Shown: one piece after another, positions 1,603 to 17,209 of the stretch
Numbering within the stretch: the first letter of the stretch is position 1
Layout of the letters: each line of letters opens with the position of its first letter
Origin: Paludibacteraceae bacterium
GTDB lineage: Bacteria > Bacteroidota > Bacteroidia > Bacteroidales > Paludibacteraceae
Length of the DNA stretch: 17,209 nt
Direction of reading: 5' to 3'
Assembly (NCBI GenBank): GCA_018055865.1
Contig: JAGPGR010000007.1
Span: forward strand, 1-17,209
The notes under the pieces: generated by a model
Seen by the model: the letters and a program-made list of their open reading frames with translations, nothing else
Databases searched by the model: none
What the model was told of the DNA's origin: nothing
Program-made: the position numbers and the translations under genes

Positions 1603-2367
1603 ATGAGAAGAAAAAAGGTCAGTGTTCTGATATTATTGATTATCACGTTATTGGTTTTGCCCTCATTCACCAAAACTAAGCATGTGAATATCTGGCTAAT
1701 TGGCGATTCTACGATGGCCTGGAAAAAGCCGGAACGTGCTCCGGAATCGGGCTGGGGTGAAGGATTGAAATTTTTTGCTAAAGAATATACAGAAATTCAT
1801 AATCACGCGGCAAGCGGCAGAAGCACCAGGAGTTTTATTGCTCAAAAAAGATGGGAAAAGGTACTTGACAGTATTCAAAAAGGGGATTTTGTAATTATTC
1901 AGTTTGGTCACAACGATGCCAAAAAGGATTCAACTCTTTATGCCGAAGCCAATTCTGATTACAAGAAATTTATCCGAAAAATGGTGGATGAAACACGCTC
2001 CAAAGGTGGAAAACCGATTATTTGTTCTTCTATTGTTCGCCGGCATTTCGATGGTAACGGAAACCTCCTGGACACGCACGGTGAATACATCAAAGCAGCC
2101 CGTGAAATTGCTTTTGAGACCAGTACACCTTATGTGAACATGGAAGCCCTCACCCGAAAAATGGTGAGTGAACTCGGTCCTGAAAAGTCAAAATCGCTTT
2201 TCGTGTTTTGTGCTCCGGGTGAATGTCCGCAGCGAAAAAATGGTGTGCAAGACTCTACTCATCTGAATTTCGATGGTGCACGACAAGTGGCAGAGCTGTT
2301 TGTGAATGAAGTGAACAAGGAAAAAATACAGGTGAGGAAATACTTTTTTAGAACTAAAAACGAATGA
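1603..2367 (+). CDS. Secreted SGNH hydrolase, rhamnogalacturonan acetylesterase-like (CE12 type)
   Basis: A 254-residue protein that should remove acetyl groups from rhamnogalacturonan I oligosaccharides in the periplasm. A basic N terminus (MRRKK) and a hydrophobic stretch at 7-22 look like a signal peptide; no lipobox cysteine is present. All four SGNH blocks are visible: GDST with nucleophile Ser36, SGRST with oxyanion Gly72, FGHND with Asn104, and DSTHLN with Asp217 and His220. The WGEG and GRSTRSF segments are typical of rhamnogalacturonan acetylesterases of the RhgT/YesT kind. The length is normal for the family. The next gene starts only 13 bp after its stop, so the two are surely co-transcribed; the lyase partner supports a pectic substrate. 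Another acetylated sugar polymer remains possible. Confidence 0.87.
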   Translation: MRRKKVSVLILLIITLLVLPSFTKTKHVNIWLIGDSTMAWKKPERAPESGWGEGLKFFAKEYTEIHNHAASGRSTRSFIAQKRWEKVLDSIQKGDFVIIQFGHNDAKKDSTLYAEANSDYKKFIRKMVDETRSKGGKPIICSSIVRRHFDGNGNLLDTHGEYIKAAREIAFETSTPYVNMEALTRKMVSELGPEKSKSLFVFCAPGECPQRKNGVQDSTHLNFDGARQVAELFVNEVNKEKIQVRKYFFRTKNE

Positions 2368-2380
2368 AATTCAGATTCAA

Positions 2381-3724
2381 ATGAGAAATACACCCATATT
2401 ATTCTTACTGATTCTGACTTTTATATTTCCTCAGACGGAGGTGAAAGCACAGATTGGCAGGAGTTTCCCTTCTGAACGAAAAGTGATAAAAGACCCTGTT
2501 ACAGGCAATCGGTTGATTTTTCTGACGAGTAAGCCCCTCGGTGATAAAAAGATTTACCAGACTCATAATCAATGGACTTCCGATGGAAAATGGATTATTT
2601 TTTCTTCAAACAGAGTAAAAGGAGAAGCCCTGGCGGTGAATGAAAATTCCGGTGAAATTGTTCAGGTAACTGAAGGGGGATTTGACGGAATGCTCAATGT
2701 TTCGAGAAAATCGATGAAGCTTTATTTTATCAGGAACGTTCAGAATGAGACAAAATCAAAAGCAATTATTGAAGTAAATCTGGAGAAAGTTTTTGCAGAT
2801 AGTAAAGCAGGCAAAATGAAATCGCCTGATGAATATCAGCGGGTTTGTTGTGTAATACCGGATGAATTTCAGGCTACCGGTGATTTGGCACTCGATGCAA
2901 ATGAAGATTGGGCCTGGTTTCGGGTTGGGAAAGAAAAAGCGTTGCAACATTTGTCGAAAGATGTAAAAATTGAACCAAATTTCGGTCCCCGCAACATGGG
3001 CGAAGGTCCGGGTGGAATTGCCGGTATGAACCTGAAAACCGGAGAAATAAAATATGTTGTTTCAGTACCTTTCCAGATTGGCCATATTCAGTCGAATCCC
3101 TGGGTCTCCGGACAAATTATTTTCTGCTGGGAAACCGGCGGTAAAGCTCCTCAGCGTACCTGGATAGTAAATTCCGAGGGGTCAGGATTGCGTCCGCTTT
3201 ATCCCGAAGCATCCTTTGAATGGATTACTCACGAAGCTGTGATAAGTTCCGATGAAGTGGCTTTTGCAATCATGGGACATAGAAAAATCAAAACGGAAAC
3301 CGACTCAACAAATTTCAAAGGAACTGATCCCAATGGAGTAAATCCCGGCCAGGATCCGGGATGGGGAAATTCCGGTACCAGAGAAAAACCTACCGGATTT
3401 GGGGTAGTCAATATTAAATCTCACGAAATGATAATTGAAGGACAGACACCCTCAGGGAGTGGCTTTTGGCATGTGGGTGGTTCGTCCGACGGGAAATTTG
3501 CAGTGGGTGATGACTTTGCACGGAATATATACCTGATTGATAGAAAAACACATGAGATGATACTGCTTTCTACCGGTCATAAACCTACGGCATTCGACCA
3601 TCCGCATCCCACATTTAAGGCAGATGGAACAAAAATAGTGATTCAGTCAGCTATGCTATCGGATGATAATCGTTCAATGAATATTTGTGTCATTCCTGTA
3701 CCGAAGAAATGGTTGAAAAGGTAG
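2381..3724 (+). CDS. Secreted oligogalacturonate lyase-like beta-propeller (PL22-like)
   Basis: A 447-residue protein with a signal peptide (hydrophobic 5-17, probable cleavage after VKA at 21-23), so probably periplasmic. The rest reads as repeated propeller strands (HNQWTSDGKWIIF at 62-74, SSDGKFAVGDD at 368-378, FKADGTKIVIQS at 412-423). Oligogalacturonate lyases (PL22) split short unsaturated galacturonides by beta-elimination with a Mn ion held by histidines. Candidate ligand and catalytic residues visible here are His235 (GHIQSNPW), His284 (WITHE), and His407 and His409 (DHPHP). The usual glutamine three residues before the first HPHP histidine appears to be Ala404, judged from memory of the family. 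A lyase acting on other uronide oligomers, or a non-catalytic TolB-like propeller, is possible. It is the second gene of the tight esterase-lyase pair. Confidence 0.78.
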   Translation: MRNTPILFLLILTFIFPQTEVKAQIGRSFPSERKVIKDPVTGNRLIFLTSKPLGDKKIYQTHNQWTSDGKWIIFSSNRVKGEALAVNENSGEIVQVTEGGFDGMLNVSRKSMKLYFIRNVQNETKSKAIIEVNLEKVFADSKAGKMKSPDEYQRVCCVIPDEFQATGDLALDANEDWAWFRVGKEKALQHLSKDVKIEPNFGPRNMGEGPGGIAGMNLKTGEIKYVVSVPFQIGHIQSNPWVSGQIIFCWETGGKAPQRTWIVNSEGSGLRPLYPEASFEWITHEAVISSDEVAFAIMGHRKIKTETDSTNFKGTDPNGVNPGQDPGWGNSGTREKPTGFGVVNIKSHEMIIEGQTPSGSGFWHVGGSSDGKFAVGDDFARNIYLIDRKTHEMILLSTGHKPTAFDHPHPTFKADGTKIVIQSAMLSDDNRSMNICVIPVPKKWLKR

Positions 3725-3727
3725 TTG

Positions 3728-3767
<40 letters not shown>

Positions 3768-3839
3768 TGAATATCGAAGAAAATTTTTTGTTGCTTATTC
3801 TGAAAATCAGTTGAGTGAAGATAGTCATCTGAAATCATC

Positions 3840-3867
3840 AATTGTAATTTGTAATTTGTAAATCGTA
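3840..3867 (+). repeat. Second heptamer array, about four copies of ATTTGTA-like unit
   Basis: Units AATTGTA, ATTTGTA, ATTTGTA and AATCGTA run head to tail and end ten bases before the ATG at 3878. The unit length is again 7 bp, as in the array at 3728. Each central copy creates TAATTTG, one base short of the Bacteroidota TAnnTTTG -7 box, so the array might contain or mimic promoter sequence; this is a guess. Confidence 0.8.
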
Positions 3868-3877
3868 AATAAAAATT

Positions 3878-5032
3878 ATGTCAACTATAAAAGTAAACGC
3901 TCACCTTCATACTCCGTACTCATTCAGTGCATTCCTTGATATTGACGATGCATTGGACAGAGCTGTGAGCGAGGGAGTTAAAGTGGTAGGAATTAATGAC
4001 TTTTACACTACTGCAGGTTATGATGATTGGGCTGAAGGTTGTAAAAAAAGGAATCTGTATCCGCTCTTTAATATTGAATTTATCAGTCTGAATGAGCAGG
4101 ATCAAAAAAACGGAATGCGGGTGAATGACCCTGCAAATCCGGGCAGAACTTACCTGAGCGGAAAGGGATTGAGTTACCCGTTTAAGTTGGATGAACCTTA
4201 CGCATCGCAACTGGCTAACGTTAGAAAAGAATCCAACGACCAGGTCGAAGCCATGTGCGGCAGGTTGAATGAACTTCTTTCAGTTACTAAAATGGATTTT
4301 TCACTCGATTTTGAGTGGATTAAAAACGAACTCACCAAAGGTTCAATCCGTGAACGTCATTTGGCGAAAGCATTACGATTGAAGGTGTATGAAAAATGCG
4401 AAAATGATGAAGCTGCTATTAAAATTCTGATGCAGGAACTTTTCGGAGGAAAAGAAATGAAATCCGGTACTGAAGATGTTGCGGGAGTGGAAAACGAAAT
4501 CCGCGGTAATCTTTTGAAAGCCGGTGGAGCTGCTTTTGTGCCTGAAACAGCAGAAGCATTCTTGCCGATGCAGACAGTTTGTGATATTATTCTGGCTGCA
4601 GGAGGAATCCCTGCCTATCCGTTTCTGGCTGATGATGCAAATGGCAAATACACTGATTTCGAAAGTGATCTTGAACGGGTTGCAGAGCAGTTGACCGAAC
4701 GTGGTTTTCATTCCGTAGAATTTATAACCACCCGAAATCATGTAGATTTGTTAGAAAAATATGCTTCATACCTTCATGATAAGGGTTTTGTAGTAACATT
4801 CGGCAGCGAGCACAATTCTCCAATGATGGAACCGGTTGAACTTTTTGCAAGAAACAATGTGCCATTAACTGAAAATTTAATGAAAATCAATTTTGAAGGA
4901 GCGTGTGTCATTGCTGCTCACCAACATCTTGTAAGCCAGGGACTCCGGGGATACGTGGACGGAAAAGGAAATGCAGACCGCACAAAAAGAGAAGAATTTG
5001 TTAAGTTAGGAAAAGAGCTAATTTGCCCCTAA
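3878..5032 (+). CDS. PHP-domain metal-dependent phosphoesterase-like protein
   Basis: A 384-residue protein with no signal peptide. PHP (polymerase and histidinol phosphatase) proteins use clustered histidines and acids to bind metal ions and usually hydrolyse phosphate esters. Visible motifs are HLH (His9, His11), the IND loop (Asp41), IE (Glu67), and GSEHN near the end (Glu311, His312). The expected histidine of the 'AHP' strand is replaced by Tyr247 in GGIPAYPF, so one metal ligand may be lost or supplied elsewhere. About 145 residues (70-215), largely charged and helical, are inserted between the Glu67 strand and the GGIPAYPF strand, making the protein longer than simple PHP enzymes. It lies 70 bp ahead of the aldolase/dehydrogenase, so a sugar-phosphate substrate from that pathway is likely but unproven. 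Its last codons lie inside a spacer repeat. Confidence 0.75.
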   Translation: MSTIKVNAHLHTPYSFSAFLDIDDALDRAVSEGVKVVGINDFYTTAGYDDWAEGCKKRNLYPLFNIEFISLNEQDQKNGMRVNDPANPGRTYLSGKGLSYPFKLDEPYASQLANVRKESNDQVEAMCGRLNELLSVTKMDFSLDFEWIKNELTKGSIRERHLAKALRLKVYEKCENDEAAIKILMQELFGGKEMKSGTEDVAGVENEIRGNLLKAGGAAFVPETAEAFLPMQTVCDIILAAGGIPAYPFLADDANGKYTDFESDLERVAEQLTERGFHSVEFITTRNHVDLLEKYASYLHDKGFVVTFGSEHNSPMMEPVELFARNNVPLTENLMKINFEGACVIAAHQHLVSQGLRGYVDGKGNADRTKREEFVKLGKELICP

Positions 5033-5050
5033 ATCCATAATAGGACTTTT
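5024..5050 (+). repeat. Degenerate single arm of the palindromic spacer repeat
   Basis: GCCCCTAAATCC followed by TAGGACTTTT matches the left arms at 7116 and 8587 in order and spacing. No right arm is found before the next gene. The PHP gene's final CCC TAA lies inside it. Confidence 0.6.
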
Positions 5051-5079
5051 TGTTGGCTTACAGAAGTTATATAAATTAG
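5049..5079 (+). promoter_or_regulatory. Possible promoter ahead of the aldolase/dehydrogenase fusion
   Basis: TTTG at 5049-5052 and TAAATTAG at 5072-5079 (7 of 8 matches to TAnnTTTG) are separated by 19 bp, the usual spacing of Bacteroidota -33 and -7 elements. This would place the start about 18 bases before the ATG at 5103. It is weak evidence, since AT-rich spacers produce such matches by chance. Confidence 0.3.
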
Positions 5080-5102
5080 AAATTTAAGATTGATTATTAA
5101 AC

Positions 5103-7115
5103 ATGAGCAACACAGACAACATAATACAAAGTTCCGAACTCTCTCTCCAGGGGATTGCGGGTCTTATCTCTATCTCTCAATTCTACGGACGTGACAGCCG
5201 TTTTGTGATAGCCGGAGGAGGAAATACTTCATACAAAGATGCTGAAAAAATCTGGGTGAAAGCCAGCGGCTCATCACTGGCAACGATTACAGAAGATGGT
5301 TTTGCAGTGCTCGACCGCGCAAAACTGAATTTCATGTCGGAAAAAGTGTACAGCAGCGATGCCCGCGAACGTGAAGAGCAGGTTAAAAACGATTTAGCTG
5401 ACGCAACTATCACCAAAGGAAAACGTCCGTCGGTAGAAACTTCCATGCACAATGCGATTGATTACCCGTATGTAGTCCATTTGCATCCCACGGCTGTAAA
5501 TGGTTTGATGTGTGCACGAAATGCCCAAACCGATTTGAGGAAACTTTTCGGCGAAAAAGCACTGTATGTGGAATATACCGATCCGGGTTATGTTTTGTTC
5601 AAAAAGGTGGATGATAAAATAAAAGCCCATCGAACCAAATTCAACGAAGAACCAAAAGTTATCTGGTTGCAAAACCATGGAATATTCGTTGCAGCAAATT
5701 CGATTGCCGAAATAAAAAATACGTACGATGAAATTTTAGCTTCGCTGAATGTATTTTCAGTCAATCTTCCGCTTGTAGAAGCCGGTTTGCACTCCTCTGA
5801 GGAATTAAAAGAGGTTGAAATGCTACCGGCCATCCGGATGATGGTTTCTAATGATGGTTTGAAAACGCTGAAAGTACGAAAAAATGAATTGATTCAATAC
5901 TATTCTGAAAGCATTGAAAATCAGAAAGACATAGCACAACCATTTACTCCCGATGCCATTGTTTATTGCAAATCGAACTATATTTTCATCAACGGAAAAA
6001 CAACCGAAGCTATTTTGGATGAAGCCGAAAAATCTATTCCCGCTTTTTCCGAAAAATTTGGTTATCTGCCAAAGGTATTATTAATTCGGGGAATTGGGTT
6101 GGTTGCTGTAGGTGAAAATGCCAAACAATGCGATATCATTTTGGATGTTTTTGAAGATGCTCTGAAAGTGGCTTTTCTCACTCAATCGTTTGGTGGGGCA
6201 CATCCGATGACACATTCTCAGATTGATTTTATAGATAACTGGGAAGTGGAAAATTACCGGCGAAGTGTTGCTGCCGGAGGAGCTGCCGGTCGTGCCGAAA
6301 ACAAAACAATCATCGTTACAGGTGCTGCGCAGGGTTTTGGTGAAGGCATTGCCGAATGTTTGCTCCACGAAGGAGCCAATATCGTGGTGGCTGATTTGAA
6401 CGAAGAAGCAGGTGAGAAAACGGTGGAGAAATTTAATTTGTCAGCAAAAAGTAATCGGGCCATTTTTGTAAAAACCAATGTAAGTGAAGTTTCAAGTATT
6501 GAAAATTTGATACACGAAACAGTGTGTAATTTTGGTGGAATAGACTGTTTTATCAGTAATGCAGGCGTACTGCGTGCCGGAGGGTTGGAAGAAATGACAC
6601 CCGAAAATTTCGATTTTGTAACCAAAATCAACTACAATGCCTATTTCTACTGCACGAAAGTGGTTAGCCGTGTTATGAAATTACAAACCAACTATGCTTC
6701 TGAAGAGTATTATGCCGATATAATACAAATCAATTCCAAATCAGGATTGCGCGGAAGTAAAGCTAATTTTGCTTATGCCGGTGGAAAATTCGGTGGAGTG
6801 GGGCTCACCCAATCGTTTGCGTTGGAGTTGGCACCATTCAGAATAAAAGTCAATTCAATTTGTCCGGGAAATTTCTATGAAGGACCACTCTGGAGTGACC
6901 CTGAAAACGGACTTTTTGTACAGTATTTAAATGCCGGAAAAGTCCCGGGAGCTAAAACCATCGAGGATGTAAAAGCGTTCTATTTATCGCAGGTACCTAT
7001 GCAAAAGGGCTGCACTCCCTTAGATGTTACCAAAGGTGCACTTTACCTGATGGAACAATGTGGTGAGACAGGACAGGCACTGCCAATCACCGGCGGACAA
7101 GTGATGCTGAGCTGA
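5103..7115 (+). CDS. Bifunctional class II aldolase / short-chain dehydrogenase (RhaEW type)
   Basis: A 670-residue cytoplasmic fusion. Residues about 15-385 are a class II (zinc) aldolase: GGGNTS at 38-43 for substrate phosphate, Glu112, zinc histidines His126 and His128 (HLH), and His192 (QNHG). Residues about 398-670 are a complete short-chain dehydrogenase: TGAAQGFGEG (406-415), Asp431 after the second strand suggesting NAD rather than NADP, SNAGV at 485-489, serine in INSKSG near 545, YAGGK (Tyr558, Lys562) and CPGNF. In known RhaEW-type proteins the aldolase splits L-rhamnulose 1-phosphate into DHAP and L-lactaldehyde and the dehydrogenase oxidises the aldehyde to lactate. Length and domain order fit. 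The substrate could be another ketose 1-phosphate, since no kinase or isomerase is in view. The next gene starts 209 bp downstream, after a repeat-filled spacer. Confidence 0.87.
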   Translation: MSNTDNIIQSSELSLQGIAGLISISQFYGRDSRFVIAGGGNTSYKDAEKIWVKASGSSLATITEDGFAVLDRAKLNFMSEKVYSSDAREREEQVKNDLADATITKGKRPSVETSMHNAIDYPYVVHLHPTAVNGLMCARNAQTDLRKLFGEKALYVEYTDPGYVLFKKVDDKIKAHRTKFNEEPKVIWLQNHGIFVAANSIAEIKNTYDEILASLNVFSVNLPLVEAGLHSSEELKEVEMLPAIRMMVSNDGLKTLKVRKNELIQYYSESIENQKDIAQPFTPDAIVYCKSNYIFINGKTTEAILDEAEKSIPAFSEKFGYLPKVLLIRGIGLVAVGENAKQCDIILDVFEDALKVAFLTQSFGGAHPMTHSQIDFIDNWEVENYRRSVAAGGAAGRAENKTIIVTGAAQGFGEGIAECLLHEGANIVVADLNEEAGEKTVEKFNLSAKSNRAIFVKTNVSEVSSIENLIHETVCNFGGIDCFISNAGVLRAGGLEEMTPENFDFVTKINYNAYFYCTKVVSRVMKLQTNYASEEYYADIIQINSKSGLRGSKANFAYAGGKFGGVGLTQSFALELAPFRIKVNSICPGNFYEGPLWSDPENGLFVQYLNAGKVPGAKTIEDVKAFYLSQVPMQKGCTPLDVTKGALYLMEQCGETGQALPITGGQVMLS

Positions 7116-7314
7116 AGCCCCCTAAACCTCACCGAAGTGGGACTTAAAGACCAGATTTCTGAATAATACTAATAAAGAAAAATATAAATCAACCAAATTA
7201 AAATATGCTGCCGAATATCTCAAAATGGTGAACAAAGCTAACTTAAAGTCCCCCGCAGTTTATCCCGCAAAGCGGGAGGGGATTTAGGGTGCTTTCTCTC
7301 GGGGATTTAGGGGT
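7116..7314 (+). repeat. Paired palindromic spacer element (two inverted arms)
   Basis: The left arm at 7116-7150 begins AGCCCCCTAAACC and ends GGGACTTAAAGA. It sits one base after the TGA of the aldolase/dehydrogenase. The right arm runs in inverted orientation from ACTTAAAGTCCCCC at 7241 to GGGGATTTAGGG near 7290, and contains its own hairpin CCCGCAAAGCGGG (7264-7276). A further fragment GGGGATTTAGGGG lies at 7301-7313. The middle part (about 7151-7240) is AT-rich with no reading frame of note. The arms match those at 8587-8697. Confidence 0.8.
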
Positions 7315-7324
7315 AGATTTATTT

Positions 7325-8596
7325 ATGAAAACAACCGCAATTCGTTTGTACGGCAAAAAAGACCTTCGGATGGAAGAGTTTGAACTGCCACAGTTAAGAG
7401 ACAATGAGATATTAGCAAAAGTAGTTTCAGATTCACTGTGTATGTCTTCATACAAAGCATCGTCGCAGGGCACCGATCATAAACGGATTCCCGATGATGT
7501 GGCTGAAAATCCGATTATTATCGGACATGAATTTGCCGGAGAATTAGTCGAGGTTGGCAGTAAGTGGGCTCACAAATTCAAAGCCGGAGATAAATTTTCC
7601 ATTCAGCCGGCTTTGTATTATGAGGATGGTCCGGTTGGAATTCTGAGCGCTCCGGGCTATAGCTACAAATTCATTGGCGGAGACGCCACTTATGTGATTA
7701 TCCCGAATGAAGTGATGGCAAGAGATTGCCTTCTGGCCTATCAGGGCGAAGGATATTATCCTGCTTCACTGGCAGAACCCCTTTCTTGTGTAATCGGGGC
7801 TATGCATGCCAATTATCATACCACGCCGGGAAGTTACAAACATTCAATGGAAATCGTGGACGGAGGAAAAATGGCAATTCTGGCAGGCGTAGGACCCATG
7901 GGGCTGGCAGCCATTAATTATGTACTTCGCCGCGAAGACCGAAAACCCTCGCTTTTAGTCGTAACAGATGTCGATCAAACACGTCTCGATCGAGCTGCAT
8001 CCATTTATACAGTAGAATTTGCTGCATCAAGAGGAATTGATTTGAAATATATCAACACCGGGAAAATGGGAAATCCTGCCGAAGAATTGAAAATGATTTC
8101 TGGTGATTCGGGATATGACGATGTTTTTGTTTTTGCACCGGTAAAACCCGTTGTTGAACAAGGCGATGCCATTCTCGCATTTGACGGATGTCTGAATTTC
8201 TTTGCCGGTCCGTCTGATCCTAATTTCAGTGCCATGTTTAATTTTTACAACGTGCATTATTCCTACACTCATATTGTGGGAACCAGTGGAGGAAATAACG
8301 ACGATATGGTTGAAGCACTGGATATAATGAGCAAAGGATTAGATCCGGCCGGATTAATCACACATATAGGTGGTTTGAATGCGGTGATTGAAGCCACCAA
8401 TCATCTCCCTGAAATTCCCGGTGGGAAAAAACTGATTTACACACACATTGATATGCCTTTGACACCGATTTCAGATTTTGCCAAAATGGGTGAAACGAAT
8501 CTGGTTTTTAAAACCTTGGCTGAGATTTGTGATAAAAATCTGGGTCTGTGGAGCGTGGAAGCCGAAGCGTTCCTACTCAAAAACATAGCCCCCTAA
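7325..8596 (+). CDS. Zinc-dependent medium-chain dehydrogenase, SorE/YggP-like (L-sorbose 1-phosphate reductase family)
   Basis: A 423-residue cytoplasmic oxidoreductase. The start chosen is ATG 7325 (MKTTAIRLYGKKDLR), which matches the family N terminus as I remember it. An upstream in-frame ATG at 7289 would add 12 residues encoded by repeat sequence and is unlikely. Catalytic zinc ligands visible are Cys39, His68 with Glu69 (GHEF), and probably Glu151 in EPLSC. The four-cysteine structural zinc loop of classical alcohol dehydrogenases is absent, as is usual in this branch. The Rossmann motif GVGPMG is at 188-193, with Asp215 favouring NAD. SorE relatives interconvert a ketose 1-phosphate and a hexitol phosphate; between two aldolase genes, a sugar-phosphate or aldehyde/diol substrate is likely. 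The last codons, GCC CCC TAA, lie inside the spacer repeat. Confidence 0.83.
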   Translation: MKTTAIRLYGKKDLRMEEFELPQLRDNEILAKVVSDSLCMSSYKASSQGTDHKRIPDDVAENPIIIGHEFAGELVEVGSKWAHKFKAGDKFSIQPALYYEDGPVGILSAPGYSYKFIGGDATYVIIPNEVMARDCLLAYQGEGYYPASLAEPLSCVIGAMHANYHTTPGSYKHSMEIVDGGKMAILAGVGPMGLAAINYVLRREDRKPSLLVVTDVDQTRLDRAASIYTVEFAASRGIDLKYINTGKMGNPAEELKMISGDSGYDDVFVFAPVKPVVEQGDAILAFDGCLNFFAGPSDPNFSAMFNFYNVHYSYTHIVGTSGGNNDDMVEALDIMSKGLDPAGLITHIGGLNAVIEATNHLPEIPGGKKLIYTHIDMPLTPISDFAKMGETNLVFKTLAEICDKNLGLWSVEAEAFLLKNIAP

Positions 8597-8697
8597 ATCC
8601 CCCATAGAGGACTTAAAAGACAAATTCTCTGAAAATAATGTATACAAACAATTAAATACTGTGCTCTTAAAGTCCCCTATGGGGGATTTAGGGGGCT
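8587..8697 (+). repeat. Paired palindromic spacer element, near-perfect inverted arms
   Basis: The left arm 8587-8620 and the reverse complement of the right arm 8665-8697 share AGCCCCCTAAATCCCCCATA, then G, then GGACTT after one mismatch (27 of 28 identical). The 44-bp middle is AT-rich. Each arm can also fold alone (TCCCC-TAT-GGGGA in the right arm). The left arm contains the stop codon of the dehydrogenase gene (8594-8596). The GGGGG of the right arm (8691-8695) lies 9 bases before the next ATG. Confidence 0.93.
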
Positions 8698-8704
8698 TCT
8701 TATT

Positions 8705-10003
8705 ATGAAACAATTAGACATTCAGTTAATGCATCCGGTGGAACAAATCAATGTTATCATCGGACGAATTTACAAAAGCGGAATGACCACCACATCCGGT
8801 GGAAACATTTCCATCAGAGACACCAATGGCGATATCTGGATTACGCCTTCGGGAGTGGATAAAGGTAATCTGACCACCAAAGACATCATGTGTGTAAAGA
8901 ATGACGGAACAGTCGTTGGGTTACACAAACCCTCGTCTGAGTTTCCCTTTCACAAAGCCATCTTCGAATCACGTCCTGATATTTCGGCAATCATTCACGC
9001 GCATCCGCCCGCATTGGTTGCATTCAGCATTGCCCGTGTAGTGCCTGATACCAAGGTTGTTCCACAGGCACATAATATTTGCGGTGACATCGGATTTGCT
9101 CCTTACGGAACACCCGGAAGTGAAGACCTCGGCAAAAAGATAGCTAACGAGTTCATAAAGAATCCTTATAAAGCCGTGATTATGGAAAATCACGGTGTAG
9201 TCCTCGGCGGAAGCGATATGATGGATGCTTATCAACGATTCGAAACACTTGAATTCTGCTGTCGTACCATAGTGAATGGTGGAAAATTGGGTAAAGTAAA
9301 TTACCTGACAGATAATCAGGTGGCAAGCTACGTCAATCATTTTCCTAAAAATATAACTCATTTTATGGATGTAGAATATCCATCAGACGAGCGGGCTTTA
9401 CGTTCGGATATGGTGAATATCATTCGTCGTGCCTGTAACCAGGGACTGATGATTTCTACATACGGAACTGTTTCCGTACGCTGGAAAAACGACGATTTCC
9501 TGATTACGCCCCGCGATGTTGCCCGATGGGATATCTTGTCGAGTGATATTGTTCAAATCAAAAATGGGATGGCTGAAGCCGGAAAAACGCCAAGTCGCTC
9601 TGTAGCATTGCATCAGCGGATTTATCAATTGAATCCGCATATTAACTCCATCATATGTACTCAGCCCGTGAACCTGATGGCACACGCGGTGAGCGGAACC
9701 AAATTCGACGTGAGAACTATCCCTGAAAGTTGGATTTTCTTGCAGGATGTGCCTTCCATTGAGTTTGGCGACCTGTATGATGATATTGACCGGATTGCCA
9801 ACATGTTCAGCACTAATCGGGTACTTTTGGTGGAAAATGATAGTGTTTTTGTAACCGGTGATAAATTACTGAATACATTTGACTACCTGGAAGTTGCCGA
9901 ATTTTCAGCCAATTCGCTCGTGATGGCATCAGGTATAGGGCCGCTGCAACCGATTGGAGATAAGGAAATCGAAGATTTGAGAGTGGCGTTTAATGTGAAG
10001 TGA
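8705..10003 (+). CDS. Tandem-duplicated class II aldolase/adducin-family protein, second domain degenerate
   Basis: A 432-residue cytoplasmic protein made of two class II aldolase domains, about 1-205 and 225-420. Domain 1 keeps every key residue: SGGNIS at 31-36, TPSG at 47-50, Glu79 (PSSEF), zinc histidines His98 and His100 (HAHPP) and His163 (ENHGVV). Such enzymes cleave or epimerise ketose phosphates such as fuculose 1-phosphate and ribulose 5-phosphate. In domain 2 the equivalent positions are Ser299, Cys318, Gln320 and Asp379, so metal binding and catalysis there are probably lost, while the framework (LITPRDVARWD, PSRSVALH) is retained. The true substrate is unknown; from context a deoxy-ketose 1-phosphate is plausible. 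It is the last gene of the + block and converges on the regulator at 10161. The ATG follows the spacer repeat closely. Confidence 0.88.
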   Translation: MKQLDIQLMHPVEQINVIIGRIYKSGMTTTSGGNISIRDTNGDIWITPSGVDKGNLTTKDIMCVKNDGTVVGLHKPSSEFPFHKAIFESRPDISAIIHAHPPALVAFSIARVVPDTKVVPQAHNICGDIGFAPYGTPGSEDLGKKIANEFIKNPYKAVIMENHGVVLGGSDMMDAYQRFETLEFCCRTIVNGGKLGKVNYLTDNQVASYVNHFPKNITHFMDVEYPSDERALRSDMVNIIRRACNQGLMISTYGTVSVRWKNDDFLITPRDVARWDILSSDIVQIKNGMAEAGKTPSRSVALHQRIYQLNPHINSIICTQPVNLMAHAVSGTKFDVRTIPESWIFLQDVPSIEFGDLYDDIDRIANMFSTNRVLLVENDSVFVTGDKLLNTFDYLEVAEFSANSLVMASGIGPLQPIGDKEIEDLRVAFNVK

Positions 10004-10160: not shown

Positions 10161-13100
10161 TTATTTGATCATACTCGGCGCCATTCCGAAATGCTTCGTA
10201 AAGCAACGGGTGAAATATTTCGGGTCATTAAAACCAACTTCGAAGGCAATCTCAGAAATATTGAGATTGCCTTTTTGTTTCAGAATCAGTTCGTGAGCTA
10301 CCGTAAGACGGTAGTTTCGAATGAATTGCACCGCAGGTTGTCCGGTGAGAATATTCATTTTCTTGTTCAGCAGGGTTTTGCTTATTCCCATATCCGAAAT
10401 AAAATCGACAACTTCGTAATTCGGATTTTGATAGTTTGTTTTCACGGTCTGAATAGCCTGACGGATGAATTTTTCATCATTCGATTCTTCACCGAAATTC
10501 AGTTCTTTTAAGTCCATATTCAGACTGAATCTTCGTTGATAGTTGCGCCGGGCTTCAAGCATATTGTTGATACGGGCGAGCAACAATTCGGAGTCGAAAG
10601 GTTTTGCCAGAAAATCATCCACACCCAGTTTATAACTGCTTATTTGTGTTTCTACATTCGATTTGGCTGTAAGCATCAGGAATGGAATGTGTGAAATGGA
10701 AAAATCTGATTTAACCTGCTTTGAGAGCTCCAGACCATCCATTACCGGCATCATCAAATCGCTGACAATAAAATCAATTGTTTTGGATTTGAGCATTTGC
10801 AGGGCTTCCTGTCCGTTTTCAGCTTCTACTATTTTATAATTTTCTGAAAGAATGGAACTTATGAATTTTCGCATGTCGTGATTATCTTCCACTACGAGTA
10901 TTGATGGCTTAATACTGGAAAGATATGAATCCGGCTCAGAATTTTCACATTCGGAATTAGCTACTTCTTTCCGTTCTATTTCTTCTGTTGAAATAGCTGT
11001 ATTACTTCTTTCCAAAGGCATTAAAACACGGAAAGTGGCTCCACCTCCCCGGTTATTTTTGGCTGAAATGGTTCCGCCAAGTAATTCGGCAATCTTTGCA
11101 CATAAGTACAACCCGATACCTGTACCGCTTTGTCCTGAAACAGAAAATTTTTCGTGTTTCTTTGACTGGTAAAAACGGTCGAAAATCTGGCTAATATCAT
11201 TTTCATCAATTCCGAAACCATTGTCTTTCAGGCCGATGTAAAGTTTTTCCTGCTTGGTGTTTTTGTCATTCAGCGAACAAACATACAGCGTAATTGAACC
11301 ATTGTCAGGAGTGAATTTTATGGAATTTGAAAGCAGATTCGTTACGAGCTTCCGGATGGCTTCATCGTCGAACAGAATTTCAGGAGAATGCAACCGATAT
11401 ATCCGTCTGATTTTAATGCCCCGTTCGGAGGTGTAAGGGTCAAACGGAACCAAAATTCCATCCAGAAAAGTGATGATATTGCCGTTTTTTGTCTGAATAT
11501 TCATCTTATCACTTTCCACTTTCCTGAAATCCATCAATTGATTGATTAACGAGAGCAAATGCCTCGAATTTTGGGATACAAACTGAAGTTGTTCAATCAC
11601 TTTGGGGTTGGTGCTGAGTTTCAACGCACGTTCTATCGGTCCGGTAATGAGTGTGATAGGTGTGCGGAATTCGTGTGTGATGTTGGTAAAGAAGGAGATA
11701 CGGTCTGTCATGGATTCCTCCACTTTTGCCGACATTTCAATCAGTTGCTTTCGTTGTGTGTCGATTTTTTTATTCTGTGAAGCCAGAATTTCATTTTGCT
11801 TCATCAGCTCGTCAGCTTGTACCTCCAGTGTTTTTTTCTGGATTTGCAGCTCTTTGGTTCGTCTTTCAACCTTTTGCTGCAGCAATTCCTGCTGACTTTT
11901 CAAAGACCTGATACGCCACTTATAGATACGATAAATTCCCCATAGCATTAGAATAAATAAAAAAGAAACAAACCAGATTGTTTTATAAAAATAAGGGCGT
12001 ACAGTTATTTCAAGTTGAGTTGTTTTGTCTATCCAATCGTTGCCGCGCGACATAGCCCGTACCTGAAACGTGTACTTCCCCGGGCGAAGGTTTGTGTAGG
12101 TTATAAATCGCCTGTCAGCACCCGTATTAATCCATTTGTCGTCGAATCCAAGCAAACGATACGAGTACGAAACGGTGGATGGATTGTCGTAACCCAGCGC
12201 TGCAAATTCGATGGAGAACGATTTGTCTTTTTCGTGTAAATTTACTTTTTCAGCATAAGCGATATCGCTTTTGAGGTATCGGTTGTCGCCAAACCACACA
12301 GGTTTGTTCAATATCTGAAGTTTTGTGAAAATGATTTTTCCGGTATTTGTTGTGCTGTTTTGCTGGATTCCGATTAGCTCTGTCAATCCATAGTTGCTGC
12401 CGAAATAGATGTTTTTATTCGTTGGAGATTTGTAGAAGGCATTCCAGTAAAACTGATTGCTGATTATACCATCGTTGGTAGTATAGTTAGCAAAATGATT
12501 GGTTGCCGGATTGTAGCAGGAGAGGCCGTGTCCGGTACTTATCCATATCAATCCGTTTTCATCCTCCAGAATTCCAAAAACTGTATTGTGAGCCAGGCCG
12601 TGTTCCTTGTCGAGAAACTGAAGTTCGTACCCTTTTTTAGAATGCGACATTCTGCAAATGCCATACCCGTTGCTCCCAATCCAGATCGATTTGTCGCTGC
12701 TCAGAAACATGCTGGTAATGTTACGCATGAAAAGCGGAGCTATTTTTTCGCCGTTGCCGGTAAAGTTTACCGATTTGAATTTTGATGTTTTTCTGTTGTA
12801 TGTATTCAAACGAATAATGGCAAGTCCTTCGGAAGTACCCATATACAAGTTGTTTTCTGTGTCTGTCAGGCATCCCAGGGTTCCCCATATTCGTTGGAAC
12901 GAAGGATTTGCAAGTGGGTCAATAATTCTTTGTAATTGAAGGTCGTAAAAGAATATATTCCGGTTTGTTCCAATCCACATTCCATTGTTGATTGTGTCAT
13001 ATTTCAAAACAGCGATATATTGAGTCGGAAAATCCATGTGAGTAAAAGTGGGGTTGGACAGTCGGTTCAGATTGATGATGTTGATGCCTCCACCCCAGGT

Positions 13101-14384
13101 TCCGGCCCACAGATTGTCGTTTCCATCCATTTCGATGGTGCTCACCGAGTTATGACTTAAATCTGTGTTTGAAGTCGTGTAATGAATAAAGGAATTACTC
13201 CCTTTTAGTTTCCGGTTTAGCCCGCCTTCCACTGTTCCGAGCCAAAGATCACCATTCTTATCTTCGTAAATGGCATTTACCGGATTGGGTGAAATAGAAT
13301 TAGGATGGTCAATATCATAAATATAATTTCTGGTAATAAGCTTCGGGAGCATCATCTTGTTTATTCCGCCCGATTCGGTACCAATCCACAAAACGTCTTT
13401 GTCGGGGAGCAGGCAATTGATGAAATCGTTGGAAAGGGATGATTTGCTACCGGTTTTTGCAGAAATGCGGCTGAAATTATTATTCTCGGCGTCATAAAAG
13501 TTTAATCCCCGCAACGTTCCTATCACTAATGTTCCATCGTCAAAAAAAGCCAGATTTGTGACCATATCCTGCGAAATGGAATTCTGATCGCTTTCACTGT
13601 GGACATAATGCTCCAGGTTATAGCTGTTAATCAGATATTTATACAATCCATTGTCGGTACCTATCCAAAGTGTATTGTCTTTTTTCATCATGGATGAAAT
13701 AAATGTATTTTCACCGAAGTCAAGCGCTTCGTTCAGCTGCTTGAAACTCAAAGAACCATTGTGTGATACCAAAACCTGATAAATAATTCCTTTACTTCCT
13801 GCATAAACAGTATTGTCAATTTCATTTATCGTGGTAAATGAATGAGGACTTTCTCCTGTTTTGTTCTCAGAGGTGATTAATTTTGCGATATTTCCGTTTT
13901 TGTCAAAATCAATTTTGTAAATTTTCTCAACGGATAAAATCCAGATGCTCCCGTTCTGATCTTTTATCACACGTTGAGTATTGATGCCGGCCAGTTTGTC
14001 CATTTCTTCACTACCGGAAGTTATCGCGGCTTTTTGCATCGTGCGCAGGTTGATAACGTCAATTCCCATATTCGAAACCACCCAAAGCCGGTTGAAATTA
14101 TCCTCACTCACTTGCCGGATGTAATTGCTTTTCAGAGAAATAGGAAGACTGCTCACATTCAGTGTCATAAATTCATATCCATCGTACCGCACCAGACCGC
14201 CGCCACCGGTAGAAATCCATAAAAAACCCCGGCTGTCCCGGTACAGGTCATCAACAAAATTGTGCGGAAGCGATTCTGCTACCGTAAAACTGTTGAAGAT
14301 ATATTTTGAAGTAGTAGGATTCTGACTGTGCAAAACCGAAGCTAAAAACAAAACAGATAGAAATGCAAGTAGGTGTTTTTTCAT
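10161..14384 (-). CDS. Hybrid two-component system sensor kinase/response regulator (HTCS), arabinan-type by context
   Basis: A 1407-residue inner-membrane protein that joins periplasmic sensor, kinase, receiver and DNA-binding parts. It has a signal peptide (1-20), then two-component propeller repeats to about residue 670, with blade signatures such as WIGT at 240, 333 and 470, WLGT at 381 and WAGT at 426. A Y_Y_Y domain (about 715-795) precedes a transmembrane helix (802-820) and a coiled coil (825-890). The kinase has phospho-acceptor His904 (THEFRTP), N-box Asn1020, DNGFG at 1054-1058 and GTGIGL at 1087-1092. The receiver has Asp1167, phospho-acceptor Asp1209, Thr1239 and Lys1261. The AraC-type DNA-binding domain fills about 1305-1407. 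All catalytic residues are present, so it should be functional. Divergent placement before GH51 and GH43 suggests it senses arabino-oligosaccharides. Confidence 0.96.
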   Translation of the reverse strand: MKKHLLAFLSVLFLASVLHSQNPTTSKYIFNSFTVAESLPHNFVDDLYRDSRGFLWISTGGGGLVRYDGYEFMTLNVSSLPISLKSNYIRQVSEDNFNRLWVVSNMGIDVINLRTMQKAAITSGSEEMDKLAGINTQRVIKDQNGSIWILSVEKIYKIDFDKNGNIAKLITSENKTGESPHSFTTINEIDNTVYAGSKGIIYQVLVSHNGSLSFKQLNEALDFGENTFISSMMKKDNTLWIGTDNGLYKYLINSYNLEHYVHSESDQNSISQDMVTNLAFFDDGTLVIGTLRGLNFYDAENNNFSRISAKTGSKSSLSNDFINCLLPDKDVLWIGTESGGINKMMLPKLITRNYIYDIDHPNSISPNPVNAIYEDKNGDLWLGTVEGGLNRKLKGSNSFIHYTTSNTDLSHNSVSTIEMDGNDNLWAGTWGGGINIINLNRLSNPTFTHMDFPTQYIAVLKYDTINNGMWIGTNRNIFFYDLQLQRIIDPLANPSFQRIWGTLGCLTDTENNLYMGTSEGLAIIRLNTYNRKTSKFKSVNFTGNGEKIAPLFMRNITSMFLSSDKSIWIGSNGYGICRMSHSKKGYELQFLDKEHGLAHNTVFGILEDENGLIWISTGHGLSCYNPATNHFANYTTNDGIISNQFYWNAFYKSPTNKNIYFGSNYGLTELIGIQQNSTTNTGKIIFTKLQILNKPVWFGDNRYLKSDIAYAEKVNLHEKDKSFSIEFAALGYDNPSTVSYSYRLLGFDDKWINTGADRRFITYTNLRPGKYTFQVRAMSRGNDWIDKTTQLEITVRPYFYKTIWFVSFLFILMLWGIYRIYKWRIRSLKSQQELLQQKVERRTKELQIQKKTLEVQADELMKQNEILASQNKKIDTQRKQLIEMSAKVEESMTDRISFFTNITHEFRTPITLITGPIERALKLSTNPKVIEQLQFVSQNSRHLLSLINQLMDFRKVESDKMNIQTKNGNIITFLDGILVPFDPYTSERGIKIRRIYRLHSPEILFDDEAIRKLVTNLLSNSIKFTPDNGSITLYVCSLNDKNTKQEKLYIGLKDNGFGIDENDISQIFDRFYQSKKHEKFSVSGQSGTGIGLYLCAKIAELLGGTISAKNNRGGGATFRVLMPLERSNTAISTEEIERKEVANSECENSEPDSYLSSIKPSILVVEDNHDMRKFISSILSENYKIVEAENGQEALQMLKSKTIDFIVSDLMMPVMDGLELSKQVKSDFSISHIPFLMLTAKSNVETQISSYKLGVDDFLAKPFDSELLLARINNMLEARRNYQRRFSLNMDLKELNFGEESNDEKFIRQAIQTVKTNYQNPNYEVVDFISDMGISKTLLNKKMNILTGQPAVQFIRNYRLTVAHELILKQKGNLNISEIAFEVGFNDPKYFTRCFTKHFGMAPSMIK

Positions 14385-14404
14385 TTTTTCAGAAATTTCA
14401 AAAA

Positions 14405-14412
14405 CAAAAATA
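14405..14412 (-). promoter_or_regulatory. Candidate -7 box for the HTCS gene
   Basis: On the minus strand this reads TATTTTTG, a perfect TAnnTTTG. Transcription would start near 14398, giving a leader of roughly 14 bases before the ATG at 14384. No clear TTTG -33 box is seen at the usual distance. Confidence 0.5.
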
Positions 14413-14427
14413 GCTATAAAAATTGAA

Positions 14428-14446
14428 AAGTGTGAATATTACACTT
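14428..14446. promoter_or_regulatory. Inverted repeat AAGTGT-N7-ACACTT near the HTCS promoter
   Basis: Six-base perfect arms separated by GAATATT lie 16-34 bases upstream of the regulator's -7 box, about where a -33 element would be. It could be an operator or a chance match. Confidence 0.35.
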
Positions 14447-14457
14447 AAAAATACAAT

Positions 14458-14486
14458 TGTCCACCTTTTAAGGAGAAATGTCCACC
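14458..14486 (+). promoter_or_regulatory. Direct-repeat operator, TGTCCACC twice at 21 bp pitch
   Basis: Identical octamers occupy 14458-14465 and 14479-14486, exactly 21 bp apart start to start, or two helical turns. AraC-family activators bind such same-face direct repeats. The downstream copy ends 21 bp before a perfect -7 box, so it takes the place of the missing -33 element. This is the natural site for the adjacent HTCS protein to activate the GH51 operon. The octamers are seen directly; the binding is inferred. Confidence 0.65.
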
Positions 14487-14507
14487 CCACTGTCAGAACA
14501 ATTCAGG

Positions 14508-14515
14508 TATATTTG
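14508..14515 (+). promoter_or_regulatory. Promoter -7 box TATATTTG for the GH51-GH43 operon
   Basis: A perfect TAnnTTTG box without a TTTG -33 element, as is common in activator-dependent Bacteroidota promoters. The direct-repeat operator lies just upstream. Transcription would start near 14521, giving a leader of about 230 bases. Confidence 0.6.
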
Positions 14516-14538
14516 CAGAGGTTTGAAAATGATAAATC

Positions 14539-14560
14539 GCTGTTTTGAGCGAAAAACAGC
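14539..14560 (+). promoter_or_regulatory. Hairpin in the predicted GH51 leader
   Basis: GCTGTTTT (14539-14546) pairs with AAAACAGC (14553-14560) around a six-base loop. It is followed by seven A's rather than T's, so it is not a terminator on this strand. It could stabilise the 5' end of the mRNA. Confidence 0.4.
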
Positions 14561-14750: not shown

Positions 14751-16292
14751 ATGAAACACAAATTTTTCGTTTTTCTGATGCTGATTCTTGCATTCCAGGT
14801 TTCGGCACAGCAAAAGGCTGAAGTTACAGTCAATGTTGATAAAGGTGAATACCAAATCAATAAACACATTTACGGTCATTTTTCCGAACATCTCGGCAGA
14901 GGCATTTACGGAGGACTTTGGGTTGGCGAAAATTCGTCCATTCCGAACGTCAACGGAGTTCGCAAAGACATTATTGATGCGCTGAAACACATTCAGATTC
15001 CTAATTTGCGCTGGCCCGGAGGTTGTTTTGCCGATGAATATCACTGGATGGATGGCATTGGTCCCCGTTCCGAACGTCCAAAAATGGTCAACACACATTG
15101 GGGCGGAGTGGTCGAAGACAACAGTTTCGGAACGCACGAATTTATGAACCTCTGTGAAGCACTCGAAACAGAACCGTACATCTGCGGCAATGTGGGTAGC
15201 GGCACTGTGGAAGAAATGTCGAAATGGGTGGAATACATTACTTTCGACGGCGAAAGCCCGATGTCAAAACTTCGCAAGGAAAACGGACGCGAAAAACCCT
15301 GGAAAATAAATCTGTGGGGCGTTGGCAACGAAAACTGGGGCTGCGGCGGGAATATGACGCCCGAAGCTTATGCCGACCATTATCGCCGTTACGCTACTTA
15401 CTGCCGCAACTATAGCGACAATAAATTGTACAAAATTGCCGGCGGACCTAATGTAGATGATTATCGCTGGATGGAAGTGATGATGAAAAACATTCCGCAT
15501 TTCCTCATGAACGGCGTTTCAGTACATAACTATACATTTACCCGCGCCTGGGAAGACAAAGGCAACGCTACCGGTTTCTCCGAAGATGATTATTTCTCGC
15601 TCCTGCAACACGGAATGCGCATGGACGAAATAGTGACCAAACACGCCGAAGTGATGGACAAATACGACCCCAAAAAACGCATCGGAATGATAGTGGACGA
15701 ATGGGGCGCCTGGTACAACGTGGAACCGGGTACCAATCCGGGATTTCTTTACCAGCAAAATACCCTTCGTGATGCCATTCTGGCAGGAACTATTCTAAAT
15801 ATTTTTCATAAACATGCTGACCGGGTTCAGGTAGCCAATATTGCACAACTTGTCAACGTGCTGCAGGCTCTTTTCCTTACAGAAGGTGATAAAATGCTGC
15901 TTACTCCGACTTATCACGTTTTTGATATGTACAAAGTGCATCACGATGCCACCATGCTTCCTGTTGAAATCAGTTCACCGACTTACAGCCGATTGGGTAA
16001 ATCCATCCCTTCACTTTCGGTATCAGCCTCCAGAGATAAAAACGGAGCTGTCAATGTGTCTTTTGTGAATATTGACCCAAATCAATCAGTAGAGATTTCC
16101 TGTAATCTGAAAGACGTAAAAGGAAAACTGGCATCAGCCAATATTATTACTGCTCCAAAAATGGATTCCTACAACACATTTGACAATCCAAATCAGGTGG
16201 TACTGAAGGAATTTAAAAGCGGAAGTTTCAAAAACGGAATCCTGAAAATCAAAATTCCCGAAAAATCAGTCGTTACAGTTCAAATCAAATAA
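14751..16292 (+). CDS. Alpha-L-arabinofuranosidase, GH51
   Basis: A 513-residue secreted enzyme that removes terminal alpha-L-arabinofuranosyl groups from arabinan, arabino-oligosaccharides or arabinoxylan by a retaining mechanism. The signal peptide is [20 protein letters not shown], with cleavage likely after SAQ at 18-20 and no lipobox, so it is periplasmic. The family hallmarks are all present: [11 protein letters not shown] at 45-55, [14 protein letters not shown] at 86-99, the acid/base Glu194 in WGVGNENWG and the nucleophile Glu317 in [10 protein letters not shown] beta-sandwich domain covers roughly 400-513, as in other members, and the length is normal. The ATG at 14751 is preceded by A-rich sequence typical of Bacteroidota starts. 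The GH43 gene begins 11 bp after its stop, so the two form an operon under the promoter at 14508. Confidence 0.96.
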
Positions 16293-16303
16293 CTACTGAA
16301 GGT

Positions 16304-17209
16304 ATGAAACAAGCTATTTATATAGTATTGATTTGGTGCATTTCGGCTTTCACTTCGTGCAGTTACAAAGCGTTTGAACCAATCAGCAATCCAAATCCAT
16401 GGGCAGATGACTACCGAAGTGTTTCCGGAATGAAAGATTACCTGAAATGGGGAACCTACAATGTTCACGACCCCTCATGTAAACTTTTCGGAGATACGTA
16501 TTACATGTACTCCACCGATGCCATTTTTGGAGAAAACAAAAAGGAAATTCAGGAAAATAACCTGCCTTTCGGCTACATTCAGGTACGCAAATCGAAAGAT
16601 TTGGTCAACTGGGAGTTTGCAGGCTGGGCATTCCGTGAAATACCTGCTGAAGCAAAAAAATGGGTGCTCGACAACAGCGGCGGCAGAGGTGCAACCAATA
16701 TCTGGGCGCCTTATATACTTCAGTACAATGGGAAATACAGATTGTACTACAGCGTTTCGGCATTTGCCAAACAAACATCCTACATTGGTCTTGCCGAGTC
16801 TGACTCGCCCGAAGGACCCTGGGAATTGAAAGGATGCGTGGTGAAAACAAAGACCGGAGATAAGATGAATGCAATAGACCAGAGCATTGTGATAAATCCT
16901 GAAACCGGAGAACACTGGATGCATTACGGGTCGTATTTCGGCGGTTTATATTGCGTGAAGCTGAATCCTGAAACGGGACTTACCATGCAGGAAGGAGATC
17001 AGGGACATTTGATAGCCCGCCGTTTCAACGGGAAGAAAAACAACATCGAAGCTCCGGAAATTATCTACAATCCGGAATTAAAACAGTATTTCCTCTTCGT
17101 ATCTTATGATCCGCTGATGACTACCTACAATATCCGTGTTGGCCGTTCAGACAATCCGGAAGGTCCGTTTCTGGATTTCTATGGAAAAGATATGCGGGAA
17201 GAAGAGGAC
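16304..17209 (+). CDS. GH43 arabinanase/arabinofuranosidase-like lipoprotein (3' end outside window)
   Basis: The frame is open to the last base; 302 residues are visible. The N terminus has a hydrophobic stretch (4-16) ending in AFTSC, so Cys19 may be lipidated; a surface or periplasmic-face location is plausible. The five-bladed propeller shows the GH43 catalytic triad: base Asp56 (NVHDPS), pKa-modulating Asp192 (AIDQS) and acid Glu249 (NIEAPE), plus NIWAPY at 132-137 and YYSVSAF at 148-154. The pattern is closest to arabinan-acting GH43 enzymes, either endo-1,5-alpha-L-arabinanase or exo-acting relatives; the missing C terminus prevents a finer call. It follows GH51 by 11 bp, and together they would break arabinan side chains of pectin into arabinose. 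Confidence 0.92.
   Translation, partial: MKQAIYIVLIWCISAFTSCSYKAFEPISNPNPWADDYRSVSGMKDYLKWGTYNVHDPSCKLFGDTYYMYSTDAIFGENKKEIQENNLPFGYIQVRKSKDLVNWEFAGWAFREIPAEAKKWVLDNSGGRGATNIWAPYILQYNGKYRLYYSVSAFAKQTSYIGLAESDSPEGPWELKGCVVKTKTGDKMNAIDQSIVINPETGEHWMHYGSYFGGLYCVKLNPETGLTMQEGDQGHLIARRFNGKKNNIEAPEIIYNPELKQYFLFVSYDPLMTTYNIRVGRSDNPEGPFLDFYGKDMREEED

Follow-up and report, generated by a model that had tools for sequence, protein, structure and literature searches.

A conserved 21-bp-pitch direct repeat in a GH51-GH43 spacer of a Paludibacteraceae bacterium, very probably the operator of a BT0366-like hybrid two-component regulator

In gut Bacteroidota, many polysaccharide loci are under the control of hybrid two-component systems (HTCSs), whose assigned DNA sites are mostly predictions. 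The question raised by the locus described here is which regulator acts in the spacer between two divergent gene sets of a Paludibacteraceae bacterium, with an HTCS gene on the left and GH51 and GH43 genes on the right. In the window, i.e. the whole stretch of 17,209 bases that was analysed, TGTCCACC occurs exactly twice, both copies lying in this spacer with a pitch of 21 bp from start to start. A preliminary description had proposed an HTCS operator on the grounds of this exact repeat, of the sequence TATATTTG located 21 nt after the second copy, of a missing -33 element whose place is taken by the repeat, and of a divergent regulator gene ending in an AraC domain. The repeat and the box were confirmed at their positions, no TTG was present in the -33 zone of the window, and the regulator gene was found to encode a full HTCS with an AraC-type domain at its C terminus. 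The AraR-type palindrome and the HTCS-side -7 box, which are included among the features below, were absent from that description.

10161..14384, minus strand: HTCS sensor/regulator of 1407 aa, the proposed binder (domain matches)
14405..14412, minus strand: -7 box TATTTTTG of the predicted promoter of the HTCS gene itself (CAAAnnTA spacing in relatives)
14428..14446, no strand assigned: predicted AraR-type operator AAGTGT-N7-ACACTT, a palindrome 11 bp upstream of half-site 1
14458..14465, plus strand: predicted HTCS operator half-site 1, TGTCCACC (exact repeat; spacer alignment)
14479..14486, plus strand: predicted HTCS operator half-site 2, TGTCCACC, 21 bp from half-site 1, adjoining and partly occupying the -33 place
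14508..14515, plus strand: -7 box TATATTTG of the predicted GH51-GH43 promoter, 21 nt after half-site 2 (TAnnTTTG spacing in relatives)
14751..16292, plus strand: GH51-type alpha-L-arabinofuranosidase, gene 1 of the proposed operon (Alpha-L-AF_C match)
16304..17209, plus strand: GH43 protein, running off the contig end (domain match)

The repeat is very probably the operator of the adjoining BT0366-like HTCS, which would activate the GH51-GH43 promoter with AraR as a modulator; binding, activation, the start site and repression by AraR are what we infer from the sequence comparisons given below. Operators of this kind are already known, both 21-bp-pitch HTCS repeats and promoter shifts by BT0366 having been published (PMC3878776, PMC5061871).

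A chance repeat in an AT-rich spacer, next to an unregulated promoter, would be compatible with dinucleotide shuffles of the window, 11 of 200 of which contained the 8-mer TGTCCACC at least twice anywhere (neither the pitch nor the intergenic place being required). The full arrangement TGTCCACC-N13-TGTCCACC was found exactly at one place in the genome (2.24 Mb, 88% complete), the next best place having two mismatches; with up to three mismatches there were 18 matches, including that of the window, and 23 for the reversed control. A composite of the degenerate repeat and a -7 box occurred once in this genome (control 0). Further repeats at other arabinan genes, for which a genome search had been suggested in the preliminary description, did not emerge, as no second composite site was present in the 88% complete assembly.

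Spacers upstream of homologous HTCS genes were more informative. A set of 103 HTCS homologue loci was compiled, comprising 80 from public genomes (the best 80 of 582 confirmed) and 23 from the family of the window, for which 150 genomes had been sampled, 18 of them with an HTCS match at E ≤1e-100. These loci consisted of 41 close homologues, 47 distant ones, 14 with <60 bp of upstream DNA and the window's own copy, which was excluded from the count. Close homologues were those with at least 900 bits, plus the partial gene L107, which was added by hand; the cut was set after the score table had been seen. A repeat was scored as a TGTCCACC-type pair at pitch 21 with at least 13 of 16 letters, no more than 450 bp upstream. 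The comparison of orthologous HTCS-GH51 spacers that the preliminary description had called for bore out its proposal: among the matches listed (best 80 of 582 plus the family loci), 26 of the 41 close homologues had the repeat in their upstream DNA and none of the 47 distant HTCSs did. The other 15 close homologues among these matches had no repeat within the 450 bp upstream, and a stricter threshold (at least 14 of 16 letters) left 23 of 41. Other pitches gave far fewer pairs at 13 or more of 16 letters (2, 4, 2 and 0 close homologues at pitches of 19, 20, 22 and 23, respectively), and dinucleotide shuffles gave a mean of 0.02 pitch-21 repeats (maximum 1). Records with the repeat were named Bacteroides, Phocaeicola, Prevotella, Odoribacteraceae, Dysgonamonadaceae and Seramator, many loci being from related Bacteroides, so that the counts are not independent. 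In the alignment of the 26 repeat-bearing spacers, T, C, C and a further C two places on were invariant in both boxes, partly owing to the choice of spacers by motif likeness, whilst the rest of the spacer was variable. Within the genus, the composite site was present once each in G089, G119 and G072, which possess a close orthologue (72-82% identity), and was not found in G024 (42% homologue), G052, G102 or G112. Judged by these alignments, the repeat is strongly conserved, and the homologous spacers are the strongest evidence against chance.

The consensus promoter described in PMC7366714 has TAnnTTTG at -7 and TTTG near -33. With gaps of 15-27 nt allowed after half-site 2, TAnnTTTG was found in 21 of 27 sites including that of the window, always at 21 nt (16 sites) or 20 nt (five sites); the remaining six had no exact TAnnTTTG in this range. 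Only two of the 21 sites with TAnnTTTG had a TTG in the -33 zone. The probability of a chance repeat is practically negligible, since both the pitch and the -7 spacing are conserved within spacers that are otherwise poorly conserved, which already contradicts it.

On the other strand, 22 of the 26 spacers other than that of the window had CAAAnnTA at a distance of 45-75 nt from the repeat, compared with a mean of 0.77 and a maximum of 5 in shuffles. The distance was 65-67 nt in 17 of them, 54 nt in three from the genus of the window, and 55 and 61 nt in one each; in the window it is 53 nt, and a minus-strand transcription start for the HTCS gene is predicted near 14402. The two groups (53-54 nt in the genus of the window, 65-67 nt in the 17 others) are about one helical turn apart. 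The repeat likely has a divergent promoter on either side, each at a near-fixed spacing, judging from these alignments, and the near-fixed distance to the -7 box of the HTCS gene suggests that the operator may feed autoactivation. The same distance, seen in most spacers, could mean that the HTCS binds mainly for its own autoregulation or for repression, and not for activation of the GH51 operon; BT0366 signalling has indeed been reported to repress distant loci as well (Lynch and Sonnenburg 2012; PMC3404733), and BT0366 mRNA to rise 15-fold over glucose (PMC5061871, where a passage says arabinose and its figure arabinan). On the GH side, however, the repeat takes the -33 position with a gap of 20 or 21 nt, which is the place of an activator, and in passages of Schwalm 2016 (PMC5061871) BT0366 is required for induction of BT0367 by arabinan and for most of the induction of BT0364. 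A mainly autoregulatory or repressive role is very unlikely indeed, and the repeat is better read as an activating operator of the GH51-GH43 promoter.

The HTCS next to the repeat contains Reg_prop, Y_Y_Y, HisKA, HATPase_c, Response_reg and HTH_18 in one chain, all above their cut-offs, and its residues 1161-1406 match the solved chain 12aw. The tetrapeptide SHIP is found at residue 1231 in its REC domain, conforming to the S/CHIP motif of HTCSs in the alpha3-beta4 loop of REC (PMC11253607). Pairing of the repeat with the DNA-binding domain was assessed at 75 loci that had both upstream DNA and a readable domain; the window was left out, as were 13 loci, including L107, at which upstream DNA was available but the domain gave no match. 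Where the domain was at least 45% identical to that of the window, 25 of 39 loci had the site, compared with none of 36 below 45% (among the matches listed). Helix classes, defined after the helix table had been seen, divided the loci in a similar way (among the matches listed): the recognition helix xS[KR][ST]xxN without an initial Tyr, to which the window belongs, went with a site in 23 of 27 loci, the form with His for Asn in two of eight and YSKT in none of six, and none of the other 34 had one. On this sequence evidence, the presence of the repeat goes together with a similar HTCS DNA-binding domain. The HTCS operator proposed in the preliminary description is therefore supported by this association, by the near-fixed -7 distance and by the 26 of 41 close as opposed to 0 of 47 distant homologues (all among the matches listed).

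Four loci with a similar recognition helix (L020, L023, L026 and L032) have no repeat within 450 bp and are unexplained exceptions. They favour the view that the repeat is bound by some other regulator, either a paralogous HTCS whose helix is similar or a free AraC-type protein, and that the adjacency of the repeat to the HTCS gene is incidental. This is very unlikely, since the site lies upstream of one HTCS group across several named taxa and of none of the 47 distant HTCSs (among the matches listed), since all genomes of the genus in which it was found have a close orthologue, and since a BT0366 fragment shifts promoters of its own locus, namely the BT0365 promoter and the BT0366-BT0367 intergenic DNA (Schwalm 2016; PMC5061871). 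A BT1754/BT0366 chimera was also located at the BT0366 locus by ChIP-seq (Lynch and Sonnenburg 2012; PMC3404733). The adjoining HTCS remains the preferred binder.

The link to BT0366 was provided by L013, a locus of an uncultured Bacteroides. In the promoter that follows its HTCS gene, the AraR oligo from the BT0365 promoter (PMC4666351) is matched over all 31 letters; among the 103 loci, the core of this oligo was found in L013 only. This match is followed by TATCCACC-N13-TGTCCACC and then by a -7 box, and the genes after this promoter encode a LamG protein, SusC and SusD. This order fits BT0365 followed by the SusC-like BT0364, and so, by way of L013, the operator very probably belongs to the BT0366 group and the HTCS next to it in the window is most likely an orthologue of the arabinan sensor BT0366. 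Like the window, the BT0366 polysaccharide utilization locus (PUL), BT0360-BT0369, has an arabinan HTCS within divergent cassettes containing GH43 and GH51 genes; its sites were predicted (Ravcheev 2013), its binding was detected by gel shift (PMC5061871) and it has an AraR site at the BT0365 promoter (PMC4666351). Of the features of BT0366-group loci, divergent GH51 and GH43 genes are present in the window itself and SusC/SusD genes in the relative G089, where GH51, GH43, a gap of 412 nt, a 571-aa protein without a Pfam match, SusC, SusD and another GH43 follow each other on the same strand.

Direct-repeat motifs with two conserved boxes and an average pitch of 21 bp were predicted for 16 HTCSs of B. 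thetaiotaomicron by Ravcheev 2013 (PMC3878776), who named BT0366 HTCS_Ara-1 and modelled a dimer on one DNA face. The window resembles these motifs in its two boxes and 21-bp pitch, the comparison being one of box layout and not of letters. It has, as they do, a two-box direct repeat with a pitch of about 21 bp that precedes glycan-utilization genes and is conserved at homologues. None of the paper titles found for TGTCCAC and Bacteroides promoters was on HTCSs. What the alignment adds is an operator at the level of letters, about TGTCCACC-N13-TGTCCACC-N20/21-TAnnTTTG, together with the matching protein group and the promoter position.

In the mechanism that we propose, periplasmic arabinan oligosaccharides would activate the sensor kinase, and phosphate would pass to the REC domain. 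Two AraC-type DNA-binding domains would then bind next to each other, one on each TGTCCACC half-site, on the same DNA face and separated by two helical turns. The downstream half-site would substitute for the missing -33 element, and the bound HTCS would bring RNA polymerase to TATATTTG and switch on GH51-GH43, with a predicted transcription start near 14521. In the araC-araBAD system of E. coli, the regulator gene is likewise divergent and AraC-type domains occupy direct half-sites, about 21 bp, beside the -35 element; unlike the HTCS, its regulator is a one-component arabinose sensor with an unrelated sensor part, and its promoter is of the sigma-70 type.

The AraR-type palindrome at 14428-14446 is the only perfect copy of AAGTGT-N7-ACACTT in its genome. 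It is also perfect in three relatives of the same genus and has one mismatch in L011. BtAraR of B. thetaiotaomicron (BT0354, NrtR family) has GTGT-N7-ACAC operators (PMC4666351), from which it is released by L-arabinose (PMC4666351, PMC5061871). The window and its genome agree with the system of PMC4666351 in the GTGT-N7-ACAC palindrome, in an AraR orthologue among ara genes and in having loci that carry both an HTCS and an AraR site; the difference is that the site of the window overlaps the HTCS gene's own promoter. A Crp/BT4338-type site was also considered for the palindrome and was dropped, as the published consensus misfits by eye whereas the AraR sites of PMC4666351, those of BT0356 and BT0365, fit.

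The AraR orthologue of the genome (L125:6249-6938, 276 bits to BtAraR, 5bs6) comes after araA, kinase, epimerase and symporter genes. This contig starts within araA, leaving the promoter of the ara operon off the contig, and it contained no AraR-like site (2.27 expected). AraR-like sites with up to two mismatches were not enriched in the genome (83, compared with 161 for the reversed control), and the test within the genus was therefore restricted to perfect sites. Seven same-genus genomes contained ten of these, and the reversed control gave one. All ten were at arabinose-related genes: five at araA, three at the HTCS/GH51 promoter and two at GH127 genes. The araA-linked sites preceded araA by 804-927 nt and were followed first by another gene, which we take to be araD; such a site was present in all five genomes in which araA was found and in neither of the two without it. 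The two GH127 sites (L149:1501-1519 and L151:1501-1519, from G119 and G072) precede beta-L-arabinofuranosidase genes, and each is itself preceded by a sigma-factor gene of the same strand. A second NrtR-family regulator of the window's genome (L126:2364-3068, 117 bits to BtAraR) has a xylose isomerase-like protein and a sugar kinase as its neighbours, and is perhaps XylR.

The association of the two kinds of site was counted at 35 HTCS operators with a -7 box, the window included, an AraR-type site being accepted with at least 10 of 12 letters no more than 80 bp upstream. Twelve operators had one (shuffles: mean 0.13, maximum 2; among the matches listed). Seven of the 12 had a gap of 11 bp, among them the window and three others from its genus; in the remaining five it was 10, 9, 1, 1 and 24 bp. 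An AraR-type site was present at seven of 14 operators downstream of an HTCS gene, and the HTCS-upstream operators with one were confined to the window, the three relatives from its genus and L011 (both among the matches listed). At ten loci named Bacteroides the scored HTCS-upstream sites had no AraR-type site, any such site being in the promoter that follows the HTCS gene, whereas in the genus of the window one divergent promoter carries both the HTCS and the AraR-type sites, as the sole composite found per genome.

The AraR-type site of the window is about 15 bp upstream of the -7 box of the HTCS gene, over its -33 region, with its end some 60 bp short of the GH51 -7 box. At the latter distance AraR would be too far away to block polymerase directly at the GH51 promoter, and it most likely limits synthesis of the HTCS until arabinose is present, as judged from the position of the site. 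The two operators could go further and form one phased module, with joint gating by polymer (arabinan oligosaccharide) and monomer (arabinose) and with AraR also shutting the sensor gene. We regard such a module as a tentative idea and an unlikely one; its odds are lowered by the effects of araR loss in B. thetaiotaomicron, where, in passages of PMC5061871, steady mRNA levels of BT0364 and BT0367 were unchanged on arabinose or glucose. Growth on arabinan was likewise reported there as unchanged, and the sole alteration was in the time course following a shift to arabinan. These observations speak against a strong AraR effect, although in B. thetaiotaomicron the AraR site is off the HTCS promoter, as far as the loci analysed here show. 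The adjoining AraR-type site illustrates how polymer and monomer signals could converge on one promoter, and, were the phased module real, the arabinan locus in the genus of the window would hang on a single site.

General 21-bp repeats phased to -7 boxes gave weak signs only in the 59 spacers without the TGTCCACC repeat, which contained four near-identical 8-mer pairs at lag 21, one at lag 27 and none at other lags (loci L097 and L035). The predicted GH51 leader is about 230 nt, longer than in several relatives, and an Rfam search of the window gave nothing at gathering score. In this 5' leader the block TTTTGAGCGAAAAA (14543-14556) is largely conserved in four same-genus spacers; it lies inside an inverted repeat in the window, and not obviously so in G089. 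Elsewhere in the window (1603-10003), the genes encode a GDSL lipase, a protein with a weak oligogalacturonate lyase-like match, a PHP protein, a class II aldolase/SDR fusion, a zinc alcohol dehydrogenase and a protein with two class II aldolase stretches, which perhaps belong to a separate sugar pathway.
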